This document shows positions 39,452 to 48,775 of a DNA stretch of 64,000 nt, one piece after another. Made by a program: the position numbers and the translations under genes. This stretch comes from Bradyrhizobium sp. CCGUVB1N3 (lineage in GTDB: Bacteria; Pseudomonadota; Alphaproteobacteria; Rhizobiales; Xanthobacteraceae): positions 9,551,501-9,615,500 of the forward strand of contig NZ_JANADR010000001.1 of the NCBI RefSeq assembly GCF_024199925.1. Direction: 5' to 3'. Under the pieces are notes generated by a model. That model saw only the letters and a list, made by a program, of their open reading frames with translations. It was not told where the DNA came from and searched no databases. Within the stretch, counting starts at the first letter, position 1. Every line of letters starts with the position of its first letter.

Positions 39452-39498
39452 GCACCGGCGCGATTTGACACCCCGGCGTCCGGGGCGATCAGGGAGCT

Positions 39499-42400
39499 TC
39501 ATTTCTCGCTCTCGCCGAAAGCGAGACACTCGCTCGCAGGAACCCTGACCGGGTCAAGATCGTAGCTTCCGGTCTGTGGGTTGTGTCGGTACCTGATGTA
39601 TTCGCCAGGCGACGGGGTCGGGAAACACCGGAACCGCGGGATATTTGGCGAGCCGGTGGGCGTTTTCGCTTTGCTGACATCCTCCGCGGGAGTCGGTGTA
39701 GTTTGAGGTGGCGCCGGTGTCGCCTGAGACGGCGTAGGAGTGGTGGGGATCGGAGCGGGCGTTGGGCTGGGCGTAAGCGTGGGGGGAGGCCTCGGAGTTT
39801 CCACCGGATTTGGCCTTGGCGTCTCCACGAGAGGCGGCTTCGCCCAATTGTACTCGTAGGCCAAGGTGCCCCCTACCACAGCGAGCGCTCCGACAATGCA
39901 CAGGATGGCTGCGCCGAGACCTGCCTTGACCGGCGCGGAATTCCAGGCCGTGGTGCGCGAAACGTCTGCCAGAGATCTAGCGGCAATCAGCCCCGGCAGC
40001 GCGCGCCCAACATAGTAGAATGATCCGACGATCAGAGCATTCGATAAGGCGCCAAGGAATGCACGGTCAGAATTGATCCGGAATGGCCTAATGGATACTT
40101 CCAGCTCCGGCAGGGCCGACAGCAGGAGTACAACGCCGCCAATTTTCGCCGCCATTCTGTGAGGTTCCGGGACGCGGGAGAGAAAATTCGCCTGCGATAG
40201 CGAGTGGAGCAGGCCGATACGGTAGGGGTCAATGCGATCGGCAGCACCGATGCCGAGTCCAACCAGGAACAGCTGATATCGCACAAACGGATCGAGTAAG
40301 ACCCCGCCCACGGAGATGTTGACCCCGACGCAATCCAGCACGATCAATCCTATCACGAACCAAAGAGCCGGGCCGCGGAGCCCGAGGAGGGATTGCAGCA
40401 AGCGCTGGATCGATCGGGGCAAATCAATCTGCGAGACGCGCGCCCGCAGTTCCGACGATCCCGCCTCGCCGAACGGAGATTCGACGGCGAACATACGTTC
40501 GCTGAGCGGCGCTGTGCCGACGGATCGACGCACGCGAGGCGGCGCGTCGATGGCTGAGCGTATGAGCCGTGTCATGACCAGCACCAGAACGACAGTGACG
40601 AAGCCGGCGAGACCCGGGTAACCGAGAAAGAAGCGAAATACGGGTACGTCAACAGCGTTGCTGCCCCACTGCAGCAACGCGCCCGTCAATTCGACGACGG
40701 CGAGCACGACGATGAGACGGTGCAGCGGCGCACGGGACAGCCCGATAAAGGCAAGCAGTATGAGCGCGAGCGGATACAGATCGGCATTGATCCGCAACGA
40801 AGAGTTGCCAACGTCCAATTCGATCATGAGGAGACAGAGGATGACCATCTGTGGCGTGGTCACCCGATCCTGCGTGAGGACCGAGGCCCGCAGCCTGGCG
40901 TCGGTCGCGAACATCGCGGCCAGGAGCGCCGCAAGGGCCCAGCCCAGAGCGGGACTGACGGCGACGAATGAGCGGTCAATTGCGATGCACAGCATCATCG
41001 GCACAAGCGCCAGCGACATCGCGGGCAAGGCGCGGGCGCCGTAGTGCGCCGCGATCCACGCCGAAACAGGCAAGGCCAATTGATGGAAGCCGCCAAGCCT
41101 CAGGACCGACAGGGCGCACGGTACAAGCAGCAGACATCGCCACCACAGCCCATCCCTGGGCGCAACTACGAGATCTGACCGCACGGTACGTATGATCGGC
41201 CAGAGCAACAGCCAATTCATCAGCCAGGAAAGCTGGCGGAAGACTGCGGTTACCGTCGGGTCGTCGGTTATTGTCGGGATGAGTATGTGCAGGATGGGGA
41301 CGGCGACCGCAAGAGCAAGGAGGCCTACCAGAGGCCTCCGCTCGGAGGCGGGGACCTCCTCGTTCCAGGCGATCAGCAGCACGAGGCCAACGAGCGCAAG
41401 CGATAGCCATGGGCCGTAGATTGTAAGCGTCCTGAACGCAGCGTTCGGAATACCAATATTCGCGGCGAACTGCGCAATTTGTGGGCTGAATGCGAATGCA
41501 ATGGGAAGCACGACACCAAACGCCATTCCGAAAAGGACGAGGAATGTCGAAGTGAAGGGAATGCCCTGCACGAGCAGGCGCCATCGTATTATCCAACGCG
41601 ATCGCGGAGACTGGGGCTGCCACCTTGGCTGCTCGAAGGCCAAAAGCCCGGCGGCGATGCCGCCGATCAGGCGCGCATTTGCATCAAGAGGCCACCAGAA
41701 CTCCTTGTGATCACTCCAGCTAATGTCAAAGAGAGGCACCGAGACAGCATCAACGACAAGGAAGAAGGCGACACCGGCCAGCGCCTGCCCGACCACGTAA
41801 AGGCTTGCGGCCTTCGCGATCGCGGGTCGGGGCGCGGCTCCCTGGCTTATCATCCTGGTTCCCAACGACCAGGCCATGAAGGCGCCGATGCTGAGCATCG
41901 CGAACTCATGCTCAATCCACAGGAGGATGTCGCTACCCTCCAGCACGCGCTGCAGATTGCCGGATGCCGCATAGCCGATGAGTACGGTCACCACGGCAGC
42001 ATTGGCCCAGGGGTGAGCCAGCGAGAACAGGGCTCTTACGACAAGTGGGGATGGAGCGTCTGCGCTGAACCAGCGATACGCGATCGTGGCCATCAAGCCT
42101 TCGGCAATACACAAATGACGTATCGCAGGCAGCGGCTCGGCGGCGAGGGCGGCTAGCATGAGGACCGCCGCGGCCAACGTCGCAAGAGCCGCGAGACCTG
42201 CGTTAACGATGCGATATCGCGGCGCGAAGAAGAGGAGAGCGATAGCGACGAGCCCGAGATTCGTGATGTCCCTCGCGACCGGTTCGATCGATTGTGCCGC
42301 CCTGAAGATCAAGCCACCCAGGCGTTGCGCATGTGTCACGACGAAATACGCGGCGAATGCGACGGTCGCGGCAGTCAAGACGACGGCGAAGCCGGTTCGC

Positions 42401-44211
42401 CAGTCTAGATCGTTGAGCGCCACTCTCCGCGAGCCGACACGCTCTCCGATCATTCCCTTCATCAGCGGGTCGGATCGATCCGACGGGTCCATGCGCTCAA
42501 GCGCTATCTCACGCAACTGACTGAGATCGTCCGGGGAGATGACCGCTGCGGTTGTGGCAGTGCTGTAGCGGCGCGGTGCCGCCTCGCCGGCCATGTACAA
42601 CAGCCAGGCGGACCGTGCGGTCTCTCGCAACTCCTTGGGGATTCGATCGACGAGCGCAATCCGAAGCCAGTTTGGCAGCTCGCCCCGACGCATCCAGGGA
42701 AGATTGGCCAGCCGTGCGAGCGAGGATTCACCGGGCATGGGAACCCCCAGCAATGTCAAATGGCCTGCAATGCCGTCGGTCGTGGCTGGTGAAAGGCGTG
42801 GCTGCACTGCGAGAATGGCTAGCAACGCGAAAGCGCGCTCGCCCAGCCATTCACGCAACTGATCGAGGAGAAGCGCCGCCCGCTGCGGCGACGGTAGCTT
42901 GCGGCCGTCCAAGAGAGCGGGTTCGAGCTGAAATTGTGGAGACGGCTGCTCTTCGTCCGCGGTCGCTTCTTCTGTCGCCACCTCGTATTCACGCGGCGAC
43001 AGCAGCCATTCCGCAATCTGCCGAATCCCTTCAGTTCGGAACTCCACGACGAACCAGCCAGCTCGGCGCAGAGCCTGCACGGCAAAGCTTGGTGGGGTCG
43101 TTAGTTCGGGAACAAGCAAGATTCGTTCGGAAAACTCATCGATCGGCGCCGAATTGATCGCTGCGTCGGCGAGACGATCATAGAACGGCCGTCCGTCGGA
43201 GATTACCAGCAGCCGCGCGCCGTAGTGGCGCAACGCAACGTGATCTAGGGTTTCGACTTGGCCGCCGGCCCAGCGGTGTGCGATGTGAGGTCTGCCGAAG
43301 AATGCATATGCGTCGCTGTGCACGCCGCCCTCGCGCAGGCATCTCAGCAAAGCCTCAACCGGAACCCTCATCTGATCCTCGGCGTGGTTCAGCTCTGCAA
43401 GGACGACGTGCTCGGGCAGCTTTGGACGACCGCCCCGGACGATGATGGGAACGCCGGCGTGACGGACGGTCTTGCGAACGGTCAGCGGCAAATTGAGAAA
43501 ATAGCCATGCGGCGACAAGTGGCGGCGCAGCGAGCGTAGCGATGTTCGTAGCGATCCTTCACTAAACCACGCGAGGTGACCTCCCAGGAACGGTGGCACT
43601 TCATCCGGGCGCGAAACAGCGACCTTGACGCGTTCGCGGTGACGGCTTCGCAGAACGATGACGGCCATGATGATGCCGACGAGCGTTGCCAGATAAACCG
43701 GCGCTGCATCAAGCCAAGTCGCGGGAAGGGTAGGTGTTGGACCCGTCCCGTTAGGCTTGAAAGGACCGATCGGCAACGGAGAGGTGGGATCGATGAGTAG
43801 CGCCAGCAGAATCGTGATGAAGCTGGCGATCCCGATCCAAACCAGCCAATTGCGTCCAACGGTGCGCGCAGCATCTTCGGCTCGCGAAAGGGTCTTAATC
43901 GGTTGCACTAGCTCGGCGACCGGGGCCAACTCGGTGGTCTCAGTTTCCGATGTTCGCATTTCGGCCGCCAGACGCGCCCGCAAGGCGCCTTGGTCGCGTG
44001 CGCTCGTGCAGAGAAGGGGCGCAAGCCAATCGGCCGCAACAAACGGTTCGTTGAGCAGGACGCCGGCGCTCGCCAGGCGCCGGAGCAGGGCGGCAGCCAT
44101 GATCTGCCGGTCGATGCCGATGCGCAAACCATCCTCTCGCCGGAGCCGATCAAGCAGGCCGTCGAGATCCGGTACTGCACGATGGGGGGCTATGTCTTCT
44201 GCTTGAGCCAT
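39499..44211 (-). CDS. Giant polytopic membrane protein with degenerate vWA-like domain, conflict-system component
   Basis: Protein of 1570 residues. Order: helical N-terminus (1-115, with LDGLLDRLRREDG resembling effector-associated helical domains), TM (122-140) and TM (172-187), a soluble region (190-590), about twenty further TMs (roughly 600-1480), and a Pro/Thr-rich tail. The soluble part contains a Rossmann-like segment: HVVLAELNHAED (268-279), FGRPHIAHRW, ARLLVISDGRPFYDRL (332-347) and ILLVPELTTPPSFAVQALRRAGWFVVEF. LVISDG resembles the fourth strand of vWA domains, while the DxSxS metal motif is replaced by ELNHAED, so metal binding is probably lost. It overlaps the MoxR gene by 22 bases. 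Function unknown; partner of the MoxR ATPase is inferred. Confidence 0.75.
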   Translation of the reverse strand: MAQAEDIAPHRAVPDLDGLLDRLRREDGLRIGIDRQIMAAALLRRLASAGVLLNEPFVAADWLAPLLCTSARDQGALRARLAAEMRTSETETTELAPVAELVQPIKTLSRAEDAARTVGRNWLVWIGIASFITILLALLIDPTSPLPIGPFKPNGTGPTPTLPATWLDAAPVYLATLVGIIMAVIVLRSRHRERVKVAVSRPDEVPPFLGGHLAWFSEGSLRTSLRSLRRHLSPHGYFLNLPLTVRKTVRHAGVPIIVRGGRPKLPEHVVLAELNHAEDQMRVPVEALLRCLREGGVHSDAYAFFGRPHIAHRWAGGQVETLDHVALRHYGARLLVISDGRPFYDRLADAAINSAPIDEFSERILLVPELTTPPSFAVQALRRAGWFVVEFRTEGIRQIAEWLLSPREYEVATEEATADEEQPSPQFQLEPALLDGRKLPSPQRAALLLDQLREWLGERAFALLAILAVQPRLSPATTDGIAGHLTLLGVPMPGESSLARLANLPWMRRGELPNWLRIALVDRIPKELRETARSAWLLYMAGEAAPRRYSTATTAAVISPDDLSQLREIALERMDPSDRSDPLMKGMIGERVGSRRVALNDLDWRTGFAVVLTAATVAFAAYFVVTHAQRLGGLIFRAAQSIEPVARDITNLGLVAIALLFFAPRYRIVNAGLAALATLAAAVLMLAALAAEPLPAIRHLCIAEGLMATIAYRWFSADAPSPLVVRALFSLAHPWANAAVVTVLIGYAASGNLQRVLEGSDILLWIEHEFAMLSIGAFMAWSLGTRMISQGAAPRPAIAKAASLYVVGQALAGVAFFLVVDAVSVPLFDISWSDHKEFWWPLDANARLIGGIAAGLLAFEQPRWQPQSPRSRWIIRWRLLVQGIPFTSTFLVLFGMAFGVVLPIAFAFSPQIAQFAANIGIPNAAFRTLTIYGPWLSLALVGLVLLIAWNEEVPASERRPLVGLLALAVAVPILHILIPTITDDPTVTAVFRQLSWLMNWLLLWPIIRTVRSDLVVAPRDGLWWRCLLLVPCALSVLRLGGFHQLALPVSAWIAAHYGARALPAMSLALVPMMLCIAIDRSFVAVSPALGWALAALLAAMFATDARLRASVLTQDRVTTPQMVILCLLMIELDVGNSSLRINADLYPLALILLAFIGLSRAPLHRLIVVLAVVELTGALLQWGSNAVDVPVFRFFLGYPGLAGFVTVVLVLVMTRLIRSAIDAPPRVRRSVGTAPLSERMFAVESPFGEAGSSELRARVSQIDLPRSIQRLLQSLLGLRGPALWFVIGLIVLDCVGVNISVGGVLLDPFVRYQLFLVGLGIGAADRIDPYRIGLLHSLSQANFLSRVPEPHRMAAKIGGVVLLLSALPELEVSIRPFRINSDRAFLGALSNALIVGSFYYVGRALPGLIAARSLADVSRTTAWNSAPVKAGLGAAILCIVGALAVVGGTLAYEYNWAKPPLVETPRPNPVETPRPPPTLTPSPTPAPIPTTPTPSQATPAPPQTTPTPAEDVSKAKTPTGSPNIPRFRCFPTPSPGEYIRYRHNPQTGSYDLDPVRVPASECLAFGESEK

Positions 44212-45374
44212 GATTGAAGCACATTGCGCCCCAATTCGAGATCGGGCGTCGATTTGAGGAGCACGCCCAGCGACGCCTCGAGCTGTTCGCTAGGCAGATT
44301 GCGAAGGCTTGAGACCGACGTGCGTCCGGATCGTTCGGGATCGAGCAGTTGCCGCATCCAGGCCAGCACTTCAGCCGTCGCGGGCCGCTTGCCGAGACCG
44401 CGTTGTATGCGCAGTTCGTGGACGAAGCTGAGCGCGTCGTCGAAGAGAGCTTCCGAGACGGAAATGTCTGCAAGACGCGCCCGCACGATCTCGCCGATCG
44501 TTACGTCTCCGGGAAACCGGGACTCCTGTGGGGGGAAGTCGATATGGTGGAAAATGCAGCGCCGCAGGAAAGCTTCAGGCAGGCTGCGTTCCGAGTTGGT
44601 CGTCATGATGACGATCGGCCAGCTTCGCGGGTTGTCGAGGCGCACCCGCACGCCGAGCTGAGGAATGTCGAACTGCATCAGATCAAGCTCTGTCAGCAGA
44701 TCGTTCGGCAGATCTCGCGGCGCCTTGTCGATTTCGTCAATCAGGACGATCGGCGGCGACTGGCGGATCGGCAGGTCGTCTGCGACCAAATCCTGAAAGA
44801 CATTGAGCTCGCCGCGGAATCGGGAACCCCGGCCAACCGCTTCGAGCTTTTGCAGCGGCGCATTGGGCCCCCCGGCTTCGAGAATGGCGCGACCAAGTCC
44901 GACAAAGGCGATGTAGGCCGAAATCGGCTCCTTGGATCTAGCATCGCCCGTCCTGCGGGTCATGGGCCTAACCGGTTTGGGGTTTGCATCGTCGGCATCG
45001 CGGTAGGCGTCGCGCAGTCGTCCGAGTTCGTCGAAACGATAGAGAATGGTTTCCTTCGATGCGTCGGATGTCACGGTCATCCGGATGAGCGATGTCCCGA
45101 CCGGAAGTCCGAGATCGGCACAGATGGCCGTCGCCAGCTCGGTCTTGCCCACGCCCGGCTCACCCGCAAGCAGCAGAGGCATCCGCAAACTCATTGCCAC
45201 GTTGACCGCCCGTATCAGGCTTGGACTGGCACGATATGCGTCCGGCTGACCGCCGAGAATTCGCGCAGGCAAGGGAAGCTCCGATAGTGACCTGCGTGGT
45301 CCCTGCGTTCCGCCGCGATAAAACAGCGGCTCTTTGTTGAGAGTGTTGCTGATCGTGCTGTCAAGTGCCGCCAC
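44190..45374 (-). CDS. MoxR-family AAA+ ATPase of the protease operon
   Basis: AAA+ ATPase of 394 residues. Walker A is AGEPGVGKTELA, a long insertion follows (with SLIRMTVTSDASKETILYRFD), Walker B is IVLIDEIDKAPRDLPNDLL, and sensor 1 with the arginine finger region is MTTNSERSLPEAFLRRCIFHHIDFP. The C-terminal helical lid ends WLKQKT. MoxR ATPases usually work with a vWA protein to remodel or insert cofactors into targets. Here the next gene encodes the vWA-like giant protein. GTG start at 45374 follows GGAGGAGTAGG; the upstream frame extension overlaps the protease gene and is rejected. Distinct from the second MoxR ATPase at 63289. Confidence 0.9.
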   Translation of the reverse strand: MAALDSTISNTLNKEPLFYRGGTQGPRRSLSELPLPARILGGQPDAYRASPSLIRAVNVAMSLRMPLLLAGEPGVGKTELATAICADLGLPVGTSLIRMTVTSDASKETILYRFDELGRLRDAYRDADDANPKPVRPMTRRTGDARSKEPISAYIAFVGLGRAILEAGGPNAPLQKLEAVGRGSRFRGELNVFQDLVADDLPIRQSPPIVLIDEIDKAPRDLPNDLLTELDLMQFDIPQLGVRVRLDNPRSWPIVIMTTNSERSLPEAFLRRCIFHHIDFPPQESRFPGDVTIGEIVRARLADISVSEALFDDALSFVHELRIQRGLGKRPATAEVLAWMRQLLDPERSGRTSVSSLRNLPSEQLEASLGVLLKSTPDLELGRNVLQSWLKQKT

Positions 45375-45390
45375 GGTCCTACTCCTCCGG

Positions 45391-46863
45391 TTATATCTGT
45401 CCTTCCAAAAGCCAAAGCAGATCTTTCTGGGTAAAGTTGATCCAGCCACGGCTCGTGACATGCGGTTCGAGGCTGCGCGCCAACGACTGGAGTTCCACGG
45501 GGCGATCGCTTTGCAGGACCTTCAGCAAGATCAGATTGCGGATATCGTCCGGCCACGCTTTGACATGTTCGAGGGAATGCGGGCCGAGGTAGACCGACTT
45601 GCTCAAAAGGCCAGTCGCAGGTTTCTTGAGCTGTTCCAGCAGATTGCCATCTGCCGGCCGTCCTTCAAACGTGAGAACGTATCCCGCGGCCTCGCCGCGC
45701 GCGCGTTGGACACCTGCCCAACATTGCCGCCATTCGGTAATCAAATGAAAGTCGAGTGGCGTGGGCTTGGCAGGCAGCGAGACATGAAACCAGGGTGCCA
45801 CCGAATGCCCCTTCAATTGGGCGGCAATCTCCTCCCATTTCTCGGGCCAGGGCGGACTTAGAAGCATGTTGCGGGCCGTGTTGCGGCACATCGTCTTCAC
45901 GGCGGAAACGGGGTCATTGGAATCTTGCGGCCAGGACACCGCAAGCAGTCCCGACGTGCGATCCTGGAACAGCCTTGGCAAGGCCTCTTCGTGAATGCGC
46001 ATAACCAGGTCGCCGCATCGATCCTGTTCTTGGCCGTAGGCGATGATCTCCACGGATGTGCCATTTGCGGTCGCATCGACGATCGTATCGATGACGCTTC
46101 CGGCAATCGTGGTGCGGTCAAAGAAGTGGATGATCTGGGACAGCTTGCGAAATTCCGGAGGAATGTCCGTGATGATGATGTTGCGCGCCTTGGGCAGCGG
46201 AGGAGTCGCGCCGAGCAGATTGCACAGATGCTGATCTTGACTGAGGAGGGCGCCGATTGGCTCTGCCTCGAGAACACTCGCGGGATCCCAACCATCCGGG
46301 TACCGTCGCATGACACCGAGGATCAAGTTACCGGCAACAAGCGGTCCACCAGAGAGGCCTTTCCACGCGGCTGCGTCATTGGCAGGCACCGAGAGGGTTG
46401 AATTGAAGGCGATGGTCGGAGGCTTCTCCGAGAACGTCCAGCATTTCCCGGGCAGATTGACGTGTGCGACGCGCTCATGAGGCTGGTTCTTCGCCTGGGC
46501 ACGTGGGAATCCCACGGTCCAGGCGACCGTGTCGTCCTCTGGCCAGTCGGCAAATTGCATTTCGCGCTGCGGCCTCGCCGCCTCGTCCTTGAGCAAGAGG
46601 ACGGCGATGTCCGGTGGTACAGTTCCCTGGGGAACGGGCGGTGGCCAGACGACCTCCGCGGCGATCGGTCGTGTTTGGTCCTTCGAGAGCTCGCGCCCGA
46701 GATAGGCATAGACCTTATCCGCGCGCTGCCAGGTTTTTTCATTGGCCACGCAGTGCAACGCGGTCAGGACCAATCCCGGCCGTACCAGCCAACCTGTCCC
46801 TGATTGATCGGGGTTGGTGGACTGGATCTTGACCACATCGAGAAATCGGTCCCGCGGATCCAT
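45391..46863 (-). CDS. Trypsin-like serine protease with long C-terminal extension
   Basis: Protein of 490 residues. The trypsin fold (1-215) has the triad His37 in LTALHC, Asp85 in PPDIAVLLLKD and Ser171 in WKGLSGGPLV; all three residues are kept. No signal peptide is seen, so the protease acts in the cytosol. The C-terminal part (about 225-490) begins NIIITDIPPEFRKLSQIIHFF and contains VSWPQDSNDPVSAVKTMCRN and WRQCWAGVQRARG, resembling in pattern inactive-STAND or effector-associated regions found on such proteases; that assignment is tentative. The start ATG 46861-46863 is 21 bases after the TRYPCO2-like gene stop, and the MoxR start is 16 bases downstream, so the genes form one operon. 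Confidence 0.82.
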   Translation of the reverse strand: MDPRDRFLDVVKIQSTNPDQSGTGWLVRPGLVLTALHCVANEKTWQRADKVYAYLGRELSKDQTRPIAAEVVWPPPVPQGTVPPDIAVLLLKDEAARPQREMQFADWPEDDTVAWTVGFPRAQAKNQPHERVAHVNLPGKCWTFSEKPPTIAFNSTLSVPANDAAAWKGLSGGPLVAGNLILGVMRRYPDGWDPASVLEAEPIGALLSQDQHLCNLLGATPPLPKARNIIITDIPPEFRKLSQIIHFFDRTTIAGSVIDTIVDATANGTSVEIIAYGQEQDRCGDLVMRIHEEALPRLFQDRTSGLLAVSWPQDSNDPVSAVKTMCRNTARNMLLSPPWPEKWEEIAAQLKGHSVAPWFHVSLPAKPTPLDFHLITEWRQCWAGVQRARGEAAGYVLTFEGRPADGNLLEQLKKPATGLLSKSVYLGPHSLEHVKAWPDDIRNLILLKVLQSDRPVELQSLARSLEPHVTSRGWINFTQKDLLWLLEGQI

Positions 46864-46884
46864 GGCGCCGAAGCCGAGCGCTAG

Positions 46885-47226
46885 CTATCCGTTAGCATTC
46901 GGTTTCGGAGGATCGTCGGGGGTCGGCAGGCGCTGGGCGCTGTCGTCGGCGATCCGGTTGGATCCGTCAATCTTGAGCTTCAAGGTGACCTTGTGGCTGC
47001 CGGTGTCGTCCCGCTTGAGGCCGCCACCCGCTTCGGCAACCCAAACTTTGATTCCGACCTTGCCATCCTTGCTCACAGTGAAGCCGACTGAGAGTTCCAG
47101 CGTGATCTCCTCGGCCGAGAAGCGCAACGCCTTTCCTGCGCCATCGGCCATCGCCGTTTCGAGTTCGGCACGAAGATTTGCGATTGCAGCTGCGATTCCT
47201 AATCCGCCCTCTGGTTCCGTGCTCAC
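46885..47226 (-). CDS. Trypsin-co-occurring domain 2 (TRYPCO2)-like small protein
   Basis: Protein of 113 residues, first gene of the operon. Two parts: an N-terminal helix (GLGIAAAIANLRAELETAMADG) and a beta-rich part with ALRFSAEEITLELSVGFTVSKDGKVGIKVWVAEAGGG and then SHKVTLKLKID. The helix plus two-strand 'I-x-L-E-L' layout is that described for TRYPCO domains, small proteins that accompany trypsin-like proteases in predicted conflict systems (Kaur, Burroughs, Iyer and Aravind). Start is GTG at 47226 behind GGAGAC. Proposed roles are sensor or inhibitor of the protease; neither is shown here. The family call rests on pattern and on location next to the protease. Confidence 0.75.
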   Translation of the reverse strand: MSTEPEGGLGIAAAIANLRAELETAMADGAGKALRFSAEEITLELSVGFTVSKDGKVGIKVWVAEAGGGLKRDDTGSHKVTLKLKIDGSNRIADDSAQRLPTPDDPPKPNANG

Positions 47227-47718
47227 GGTCCGTCTCCTCTAAAGGAATTGGCAAACAATGGGATGCGCGGTCGTGTTAAATATGTGCAATTGCTCCGGCT
47301 GATGACAAAAATAGTCGCTACGCCGGCCGCGGGCGATATTGTAGTGATACACACTTCGGTTGCAATAGGTTTGCGGTGGATTCCGATGCGCCGCGCTGCG
47401 GCAAGGACGCCACTTCAGCCGAACCGATCCTTCCACGCCCGTAGCGCATCGTCAGTCGGCAGCGCGATGGCGCGCTCGACGCCGCGTGCGACCACGTTTG
47501 CCGCGACCGAGCTCGGGACCAGAGCAACCAGTACACCGCTGCTTCTCCCTATCCCTCTGCTATCTCAAATGTTTCGGCGTCGCCCGAGCATGGCGACGGC
47601 GACAAGCCCTCTTACTTTGCATGGGGTTGTTTTTGATGTTTTGTTTGGCAGCTCCCCAACCATGTCTCTGTGCTTGACCGCCGCCGCTTTCACGCCGGGC
47701 GGTGACGAGAGTGTCGGA
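47227..47718. other. Intergenic region upstream of the conflict operon
   Basis: 492 bases between the TRYPCO2-like gene start and the P1-peptidase stop. Apart from the peptidase relic, it has low coding potential. The stretch 47245-47380 should contain the operon promoter; ATATTGTAGTGATACAC (about 47337-47353) and its surroundings are AT-rich. No clear -35/-10 or operator was identified. Confidence 0.5.
47415..47515 (-). pseudogene. Relic of the 3' end of a P1-peptidase gene
   Basis: On the minus strand the frame ending at TGA (47415-47417) reads VAANVVARGVERAIALPTDD and then ALRAWKDRFG before the stop. This is clearly similar to the last 33 residues of the intact P1 peptidase at 47719 (VAANVVARAIARGVYSATVLPF then AGALPSWKDRFG), and the bases GCCGAACCGATCCTTCCACG are identical. 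No more of the gene is present upstream of this point, where the DNA becomes A+T-richer and without frames. It is the eroded end of a diverged second copy. It lies between the conflict operon and the intact gene. Confidence 0.8.
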
Positions 47719-48714
47719 CTAGCCGAACCGATCCTTCCACGAAGGTAGCGCGCCGGCGAACGGCAACACCGTCGCGCTGTACACGCCGCGCGCAATCGCG
47801 CGCGCCACGACGTTGGCTGCGACCATGCCGACCTCGGTGAGGCCGACGATCGGATCGATCGGCTTTTCGCAAGTCGCGGCGGCAAACAGCACGTCGCCGT
47901 CGGTCGGTGCATGCACGGGATAGATCGCGCGGGCAAAGCCCGTCTGCCCGATCATGGCGAGGCGCTTGGCTTGCGCCTTGGTCAGCGTCGCATCGGTGAC
48001 GACGAGGCCGATCGTCGTGTTCTCGCGCGGGCTCGCGGCCGGCCCGCCCTTGATGCGCATCTTGAGCATGTCGTCCGTGAAGGTATCCGGCAGGCCGCGT
48101 CCGCCGAATTCGCCGCCCACCTCGAACGGCGCGGCCCAGAACCAGGGGCCGTCGCCGACGGTTACGCTGCCGACCGCGTTGACCGCGGCGATCGCGGCGA
48201 CCTTGATGCCGTTGCTGGTCACGGCGGACGCCGAGCCGAGCCCGCCCTTGAAGTTCGCCGTGGTGGCGCCGAGGCCGGCGCCGACACTGCCGATCGCGAA
48301 GTCCGTGCCGGCTGAGGCTGCCGCGGCGTAGCCGAGGTCGCGATAGGGCGGGAAGCGGCCCCAGGCCTTGTCACCGCCATTGAGGAGATCGAACAGGATC
48401 GCGCCCGGCACGATCGGGATCAGCGCCTCGCGGACCCGGAAGCCGCGGCCCTGCTCGGCGAGCCAGGCCTGTACGCCGCCGCCGGTCTCGAGCCCGAAGG
48501 CCGAGCCGCCCGACAGTGCGATCGCATCGACGCGCTCGACCGTGTTGGCAAGGTCGAGCAGCGCGTCCTCGCGCGTCCCGGGCCCGCCGCCGCGCACGTC
48601 GATCGCCGCCACCGCCGGCTGGTCGAAGACGATCGCGGTCGCACCCGAGGCGAGCTTTTCGTCGTGGGCGTGCCCGACGCGGACGCCGGCGATATCGGTG
48701 AGGAGGTTTTTCAA
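47719..48714 (-). CDS. P1 (S58/DmpA-NylC) family peptidase
   Basis: N-terminal-nucleophile enzyme of about 331 residues, self-cleaving into two chains. The N-terminal part is LTDIAGVRVGHA and the VDAIALSGGSAFGLET segment is highly typical; GFRVREALIPIVPGAILFD follows. The proposed cleavage site is Asn232-Thr233 in ENTTIGLVVTDATL, similar to the Asn/Thr site of the NylC-type branch as recalled. Substrates of the family are small peptides, D-esters, beta-peptides or nylon oligomers, and cannot be told here. Starts in this frame are all TTG; the one at 48714 has GGGAG six bases upstream, that at 48735 does not. Confidence 0.87.
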   Translation of the reverse strand: MKNLLTDIAGVRVGHAHDEKLASGATAIVFDQPAVAAIDVRGGGPGTREDALLDLANTVERVDAIALSGGSAFGLETGGGVQAWLAEQGRGFRVREALIPIVPGAILFDLLNGGDKAWGRFPPYRDLGYAAAASAGTDFAIGSVGAGLGATTANFKGGLGSASAVTSNGIKVAAIAAVNAVGSVTVGDGPWFWAAPFEVGGEFGGRGLPDTFTDDMLKMRIKGGPAASPRENTTIGLVVTDATLTKAQAKRLAMIGQTGFARAIYPVHAPTDGDVLFAAATCEKPIDPIVGLTEVGMVAANVVARAIARGVYSATVLPFAGALPSWKDRFG

Positions 48715-48775
48715 GGCGGACTCCCGGCGCTGCAAGCGACAGTGCCGTCAGCGATAGCGCAGGCGCAAGCTGCGC

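Follow-up and report, generated by a model that had tools for sequence, protein, structure and literature searches.

The window analysed here is a 64-kb stretch of DNA from Bradyrhizobium sp. CCGUVB1N3, and all coordinates below are positions in it; in the segment 39499-47226 it carries four packed minus-strand open reading frames (ORFs) encoding a Trypco2 protein, a trypsin, a MoxR-like AAA+ ATPase and a 1570-residue membrane protein (hereafter the giant). This operon fits best into the MoxR–von Willebrand factor A (vWA)–inactive STAND (iSTAND) ternary conflict class, of which it is probably a horizontally acquired, inner-membrane member, a placement made because of its architecture, the Pfam iSTAND matches in three equivalent proteins and the fold. 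The class was predicted by Kaur et al. 2020 (PMC7159879); as far as the available part of that paper describes it, its iSTAND proteins carry N-terminal peptidase, TIR, cyclase or effector-associated (EAD) domains, the third component is predicted to sense, the MoxR–vWA pair to set a threshold and to remodel, and the N-terminal peptidases to release or trigger effectors. An earlier sequence-only reading had pointed out four closely spaced minus-strand genes and their likeness to predicted MoxR–vWA conflict systems with trypsin and Trypco2; the ORFs lie at those positions, and the likeness was supported. In gene order the spacing is 21 bp, 16 bp and then a 22-bp overlap, and the genes and their parts are the following:

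46885..47226, minus strand: Trypco2 protein, 113 aa; PF19631, E 1.5e-23, 83.3 bits (cut-off 24.2)
45391..46863, minus strand: third component, a trypsin–iSTAND-like fusion, 490 aa; PF00089, PF13365 and catalytic triad
45571..46125, minus strand: iSTAND-like domain of the third component, residues 247-431; NB-ARC/ORC-like fold, degenerate Walker A
44190..45374, minus strand: MoxR-like AAA+ ATPase, 394 aa from GTG; AAA, AAA_5 and motifs
39499..44211, minus strand: giant vWA-like polytopic membrane protein, 1570 aa; open frame
43930..44211, minus strand: N-terminal four-helix region of the giant, residues about 1-94; model helices
43651..43848, minus strand: two membrane segments of the giant, residues 122-140 and 169-187; hydropathy and long model helices
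42991..43557, minus strand: vWA-like domain of the giant, residues about 219-407, with altered metal ion-dependent adhesion site (MIDAS); E273, D279; S337-D338-G339
42442..42894, minus strand: helical linker of the giant, residues about 440-590, with motif LPWxRxGxxPxWLR; alignment A2
39862..42393, minus strand: polytopic membrane domain of the giant, residues about 607-1450; hhalign profile match
39502..39849, minus strand: Pro-rich tail of the giant with two Cys, residues 1455-1570; sequence

The trypsin part of the third component was over the Pfam cut-off (Trypsin PF00089, 43.5 bits; PF13365, 31.6 bits) and its triad H37/D85/S171, which the sequence-only reading had called intact, was present in the motifs LTALHC, DIAV and GLSGG, giving the N-terminal peptidase that the class places on iSTAND proteins. 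The C-terminal half looks like an inactive STAND domain, a model-based prediction that is well supported: the domain model matched NLR, ORC and Dark/Apaf-1 chains by fold, the Walker A is degenerate in the sequence, and the protease aligned with the iSTAND-bearing protein of an Azospirillum plasmid (24% identity over 338 columns). The Pfam iSTAND model itself (PF19995, cut-off 24) was passed by the equivalent proteins of three related loci, L013 (32.8 bits), L020 (33.2 bits) and L124 (25.0 bits), so that an inactive STAND domain in the third component, as in the class, is seen by fold in the window and by Pfam in these relatives. The protease being one half of an iSTAND-like fusion, its regulator is expected to be built in. 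The small first protein was confirmed as TRYPCO2-like by its Pfam score; it and its Azospirillum counterpart both match the model, with no BLAST alignment between them at 1e-3.

The third components of other relatives bear, by Pfam, TIR (L044, L067 and L068) or cyclase (L071) domains, and those of L127 and L130 look caspase-like, with an SGHG motif in both; Peptidase_C14 scored 18.0 bits in L130, under the cut-off of 21.4, L127 was without a Pfam match, and the iSTAND profile scores were weak (26.3 and 16.9 bits, respectively). An ORF with a VFVHGI motif, putatively alpha/beta-hydrolase-like, lies upstream in both of these loci.

The ATPase carries the motifs GEPGVGKT, IVLIDE, TTN and FLRR and passed Pfam AAA (48.3 bits) and AAA_5 (41.7 bits). 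Its nearest plasmid relatives by tblastn are named MoxR in RefSeq, for which reason it is called MoxR-like here; they include ATPases beside Pfam-iSTAND genes in L013, L014 and L015, so that the window ATPase belongs to a family found next to such genes, as in the class. The MoxR label given by the sequence-only reading agrees with the motifs, the AAA and AAA_5 matches and the names of the relatives, and not with one Pfam model considered below; the MoxR clade proper is marked by a helix-2 insert. Translation likely starts at GTG 45374, behind a stretch resembling a ribosome-binding site, rather than at ATG 45461, which overlaps the protease. In the class, MoxR lacks the N- and C-terminal extensions of VMAP systems; here the AAA+ core comes after about 60 residues that include a stretch, YRGGTQG/LPLPARI, loosely VMAP-motif-like and without Trp. 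The best NCBIfam resemblance was to MadB (74 bits, far under the cut-off of 475).

In the giant, no Pfam family matched at E <=0.01 (one reached 0.078, far under its cut-off), and Pfam vWA gave no match in the giants of the window, L013 or L014. The N-terminal module was modelled (predicted local distance difference test, pLDDT, 73.8) as four helices (residues 16-27, 33-48, 56-67 and 71-94), a pair of membrane helices, a Rossmann-like domain spanning residues ~219-407 and, last, the helical linker; the predicted four-helix domain and N-terminal transmembrane segments, like the variable C-terminus described below, agree with the vWA components of the class as given in the available part of PMC7159879. 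In Foldseek the three best matches of the module, at E 4.9e-4 to 1.1e-3 and with target TM-scores of 0.39-0.41, were all to NorQD complexes, namely to their chain G, and the only two at E <=0.001 were both of this chain, which we take to be NorD. VIA scores were 8.1 for the midasin MIDAS, 7.9 for NorQD chain G and 7.6 for an integrin-type vWA. There is moderate support, at the level of the model, for residues ~219-407 being vWA-like.

The module behaves as one family: with the window left out of the model it scored 217 bits (best of 200 shuffles, 1.5), and without five loci 138 bits (best shuffle, 1.8). The family consensus at the place of DxSxS is D-R-x4-D-H-Q, with E273 and D279 in the window giant plus S337-D338-G339. 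The loss of DxSxS reported by the sequence-only reading is therefore real and not peculiar to this protein, since the degenerate MIDAS is, judging by the alignment, a trait of the family. Two MIDAS aspartates are typical of the class and not defining, and the window giant lacks the pair; their replacement sets this family apart from the systems described in the available part of PMC7159879, which does report a subset of ternary vWAs (FtsH and beta-propeller classes) without one or both aspartates. In alignment A2 (36 rows), L504, W506, R508, G510, P513, W515, L516 and R517 are invariant, and LPWxRxGxxPxWLR is, on these rows, the best conserved motif of the family.

Hydropathy (mean >=1.5), on which every count of transmembrane segments rests, gave 18 segments in the giant, of which 16 lie C-terminal to the vWA-like part and two N-terminal to it; the protein is thus polytopic, as had been proposed, with fewer helices than the roughly 22 first counted. 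BLAST of the membrane domain against the relatives gave nothing convincing (best E 0.02), whereas hhalign, in which the relatives were compared as group profiles and L042 alone singly, matched it to the L125/126/127/130 profile (score 58.1, 86% probability) and to the L013/L020/L124 profile (53.0, 81%). Sixteen segment-preserving shuffles reached at most 26.8 and 25.4 against these two profiles, respectively, and three unrelated polytopic ORFs, all shorter (396-513 aa), scored at most 19.1. Taken singly, L042 matched the L013/L020/L124 group at 64% probability; against the window (0.3%) and against the L125/126/127/130 group (2.1%) it was without signal. A kinship of the membrane domains is therefore recognisable by profile only, across seven relatives. 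When the membrane domain was searched for in 385 genomes of the taxonomic class, with at most two candidates scored per genome, only the window's own genome matched. Six of 10 chosen genus genomes also matched, by construction because all six had supplied profile rows, and the four module carriers without a polytopic tail did not. A housekeeping transporter is disfavoured by this narrow distribution and by the lack of a Pfam family at E <=0.01.

After the membrane domain, L127 and L130 carry a Tle1-like phospholipase (PF09994, E 8.7e-70 and 2.2e-69, respectively); these polytopic congener proteins lie at L127:6673-12303 and L130:2557-8079. Among 36 module proteins the C-termini included FGE-sulfatase (8/36) and WD40-type domains (up to 4/36, among 25 of 77 families listed), and the giant of one relative ends in GUN4. 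In the available part of PMC7159879 the transmembrane segments of vWA components are followed mostly by soluble effectors or wall-binding domains, in contrast to the ~14-20-helix domain of the giant and its relatives. Such a domain seems undescribed, none having been found in the literature searched, though the supplement of that paper could list one, and the opinion that a vWA-like domain on a giant polytopic protein is unusual was borne out.

Several results weigh against placing the operon in this class. Pfam iSTAND was passed in only three of the nine third components from loci with multi-transmembrane C-termini, those of the window, L042, L125, L126, L127 and L130 not passing it. A leave-out iSTAND profile scored the window protease at 15 bits, and at 4.7 bits when L013, L020, L023, L042 and L044 were removed as well. 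The protease model was poor (mean pLDDT 52.7) with its trypsin part unmodelled, iSTAND rows were included in the alignment behind it, and ORC-type AAA+ folds matched the C-terminal half as well as STAND did. The ATPase did not pass Pfam AAA_3 (11.7 bits, cut-off 27). Two other chains, one of a response regulator at 8.4 and one of TIR at 8.2, tied with the vWA chains in VIA, so that fold alone is not decisive for vWA identity, and the degenerate vWA-like domain of the sequence-only reading stands on its top Foldseek match and is matched by other Rossmann-like folds. No experimental test of the MoxR–vWA ternary class was found in the literature searched.

The S58 peptidase gene that flanks the operon is present in 78/79 genus genomes, and the insertion site was studied by comparing the syntenic region in 10 (L103-L112) of the 77 besides the window's own. 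The site and a nearby repeat are as follows:

39453..47719, no strand: inserted segment with the four genes, from the EF-hand gene (ends 39451) to the S58 gene (47719-48735)
47417..47508, minus strand: partial, diverged repeat of S58 gene sequence (3' end); alignment to 47721-47812

In all 10 relatives the aligned ends of the EF-hand and S58 genes were 65-474 bp apart, a gap that leaves no room for the operon, so their sites are empty of it; in the window the same genes are 8.3 kb apart, the difference being the four genes, and the seven flanking genes retain their order in the relatives compared. It is well supported by this comparison that the four genes form one inserted, apparently horizontally acquired unit of ~8.3 kb. 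This insertion at an otherwise empty site and the iSTAND-like half of the protease both go beyond the sequence-only reading. The partial copy of the S58 gene, 91 bp in length, had an alignment score of 52 (best of 200 shuffles, 28) with its first 21 bp identical, suggesting integration at that gene end, of which it is a possible trace. No tRNA that could have served as insertion site was present in the window, and terminal repeats of the insert gave a best local score of 19 in either orientation, nothing notable. Within the part of the window that was looked at, the seven flanking genes, there was no sign of a defence island, and each of the seven is in synteny in all 10 relatives. A perfect short hairpin, CCCCGG-CGT-CCGGGG at 39471-39485, lies between the convergent ends of the giant and EF-hand genes and is a possible terminator.

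The order Trypco2–protease–ATPase–module was shared by the window, L013, L020, L042 and L124, the relatives being an Azospirillum plasmid, a Limobrevibacterium, an Eremiobacterota metagenome-assembled genome and one congener. On plasmids, tblastn with the giant returned two records, both via the N-terminal part. Plasmid AZO_p2 of Azospirillum lipoferum 4B (typed conjugative) carries all four genes, arranged as in the window, and a fifth, small ORF; identity to the window is 38% for the ATPase, 28% for residues 17-536 of the giant and 24% for the protease; the membrane part, like Trypco2, did not align by BLAST. The ATPase is, on sequence identity, the best conserved component. The fifth ORF (L013:12077-12394, 105 aa) follows the giant; judged by eye, it contains a single hydrophobic stretch and ends in a Pro-rich part that recalls the Pro-rich tail of the window giant, as if split off. 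The Azospirillum giant (L013:7845-12080) is named 'O-antigen polymerase' in RefSeq, likely a misannotation, as it is without Pfam support.

A scan of genome contigs with alignment A1 (four N-terminal modules) recovered 36 loci out of 93 pattern matches, many from giant sulfur bacteria and filamentous cyanobacteria; a first scan of genome contigs with the giant alone gave 27 pattern matches with no relative among them. Viral contigs gave 40 pattern matches and no relative, and thus no sign of phage or viral carriage. A related ATPase ORF was found on the same strand, at most ~3.2 kb upstream of the module, in 33/40 (the window, L013-L015 and L020-L055), 5/6 and 9/9 loci of three sets. Six of the seven misses in the first set had the module at most ~1.1 kb from a contig end and the seventh, L051, contains only a 143-residue piece; the sole miss in the second (L070) is also at a contig end. 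The Trypco2 profile matched five of 55 loci, namely its sources (the window, L013, L020 and L042) and, independently, L124. All five have trypsin triad motifs, with Pfam trypsin passed except in L020, and multi-transmembrane C-termini (seven segments in L020 and 14-20 in the others, hydropathy 1.6).

Counting the window's own genome, with up to 3-4 candidates scored per genome, the module was carried by 10/265 genomes of the genus, 7/397 of the order and 3/385 of the class, two of these last three matches being very weak; five of the nine other genus carriers (L124-L127 and L130) have polytopic C-termini. The operon is therefore accessory and sporadic, without conserved synteny. A giant resembling a housekeeping transporter or sensor with conserved chromosomal synteny, and a small protein off the TRYPCO2 profiles, were the outcomes that the sequence-only reading had named as contrary to it, and neither was observed. 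A second branch of the module, in L069, L072, L129, L131 and L132, comprises proteins of 880-922 residues in which more sequence precedes the vWA-like part and the region beyond ~residue 820 contains one or two membrane segments; the third components of L069 and L072 are trypsin-like according to Pfam.

Three described systems were compared with the operon, each through the available part of its report. The nearest in the literature searched is the DGR 9 locus of Thiohalocapsa (PMC10907252), where MoxR likewise adjoins a trypsin-like peptidase without a canonical VMAP domain; by description, its partner has C-type lectin domains diversified by a diversity-generating retroelement (DGR), for which the window giant had no Pfam match. 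NorQ–NorD (PMC13036017) resembles the window in its MoxR ring with a vWA partner and, through chain G, in the top Foldseek match of the module; unlike the window, NorD has an intact MIDAS, and the pair is without protease, iSTAND or polytopic domain. In Caulobacter LypABC (PMC13236601), LypA is a trypsin followed by an ATPase domain without Walker motifs, as in the third component, and its peptidase activity is required for lysis; by description LypA differs in having a CARD, and its partner, the ATPase LypB, has TPRs and keeps its Walker motifs intact. CARD-NLR (Lyp-like) membership was rejected, with no CARD or active NLR-like ATPase Pfam match among the four proteins and no room for a CARD ahead of the trypsin, whose match begins at residue 11. 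AVAST type 1 (Avs1) was rejected as well, the Avs1b protease scoring 20 bits against a cut-off of 1500. PADLOC gave sub-family resemblances only, for the protease (LmuA, 31.7 bits; Avs1b, 23.3 bits) and the ATPase (IetA, about 25 bits), and nothing for Trypco2 or the giant.

A defence role of the operon is suggested by its distribution and architecture. The complex would rest at the inner membrane until a trigger docks on the iSTAND part or disturbs the membrane domain; beyond the assembly of the complex, all steps are what we infer. The ATPase ring would engage the vWA-like module as NorQ does NorD, where a vWA finger enters the NorQ pore and the motor is proposed to twist and stretch the linker (PMC13036017, available part). 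Driven by ATP, the ring might similarly rotate the linker that joins the vWA part to the membrane, or stretch it, and this movement would activate the trypsin; Trypco2 would act as its regulator or be its first substrate. Once active, the protease would cleave the giant or cell proteins, and membrane damage or a growth stop would keep the invader from spreading. Tentatively, and with less than even confidence, the operon and its polytopic relatives may form an undescribed membrane-embedded ternary class, in which a ~14-20-helix domain is the shared part facing the membrane and is combined with trypsin–iSTAND(–Trypco2) or caspase-like–iSTAND components. Its target would be the membrane of the cell itself, attacked here through conduction and, in two congeners, through the attached Tle1-like phospholipase.

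It seems doubtful that killing is done by the membrane domain of the giant itself, as a gated channel that the ATPase opens and that the trypsin, as trigger, unlocks. The domain is recognisable by profile across relatives while the part that follows it varies, being Pro-rich or a phospholipase, which would suit a channel; a membrane platform is, however, a reading at least as good, given the lipase that two relatives attach to the domain, and the sequence matched no channel or transporter of solved structure, the sole PDB match at E <=1 being a dehydrogenase (0.0025). The lipase-bearing sisters appear to favour a platform with membrane-directed output over a pore.

It is unlikely that the operon encodes a dedicated maturation or repair chaperone of the NorQD or RavA-ViaA kind, with the trypsin for quality control and no conflict role. 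The vWA-like part has its top Foldseek match in NorQD, which matures a membrane enzyme according to the available part of PMC13036017, and a trypsin with an AAA+ ATPase also suits quality control. Against this, the operon is absent from 10/10 syntenic sites and the module was not found in 255/265 genus genomes, the relatives swap both N-terminal signalling domains and C-terminal domains, and the insert has no fifth gene able to serve as client. A VMAP-type ternary system with a VMAP-C diverged past recognition shares the gene order, with trypsin and Trypco2 as typical VMAP partners (PMC7159879, available part), and is highly improbable, as no VMAP-C was found in Pfam at E <=1 and a STAND-like fold, with Pfam iSTAND in three equivalents, occupies its place.

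If the tentative reading of a membrane-embedded class is true, these loci would be the bacterial analogue of a protein of NLR fold that works by way of machinery in the membrane. A compact four-gene cassette with a known empty site makes a practical test case for a predicted class, and the polytopic domain, the altered MIDAS and the phospholipase-bearing sisters offer separable hypotheses on its site of action, which would be the inner membrane.

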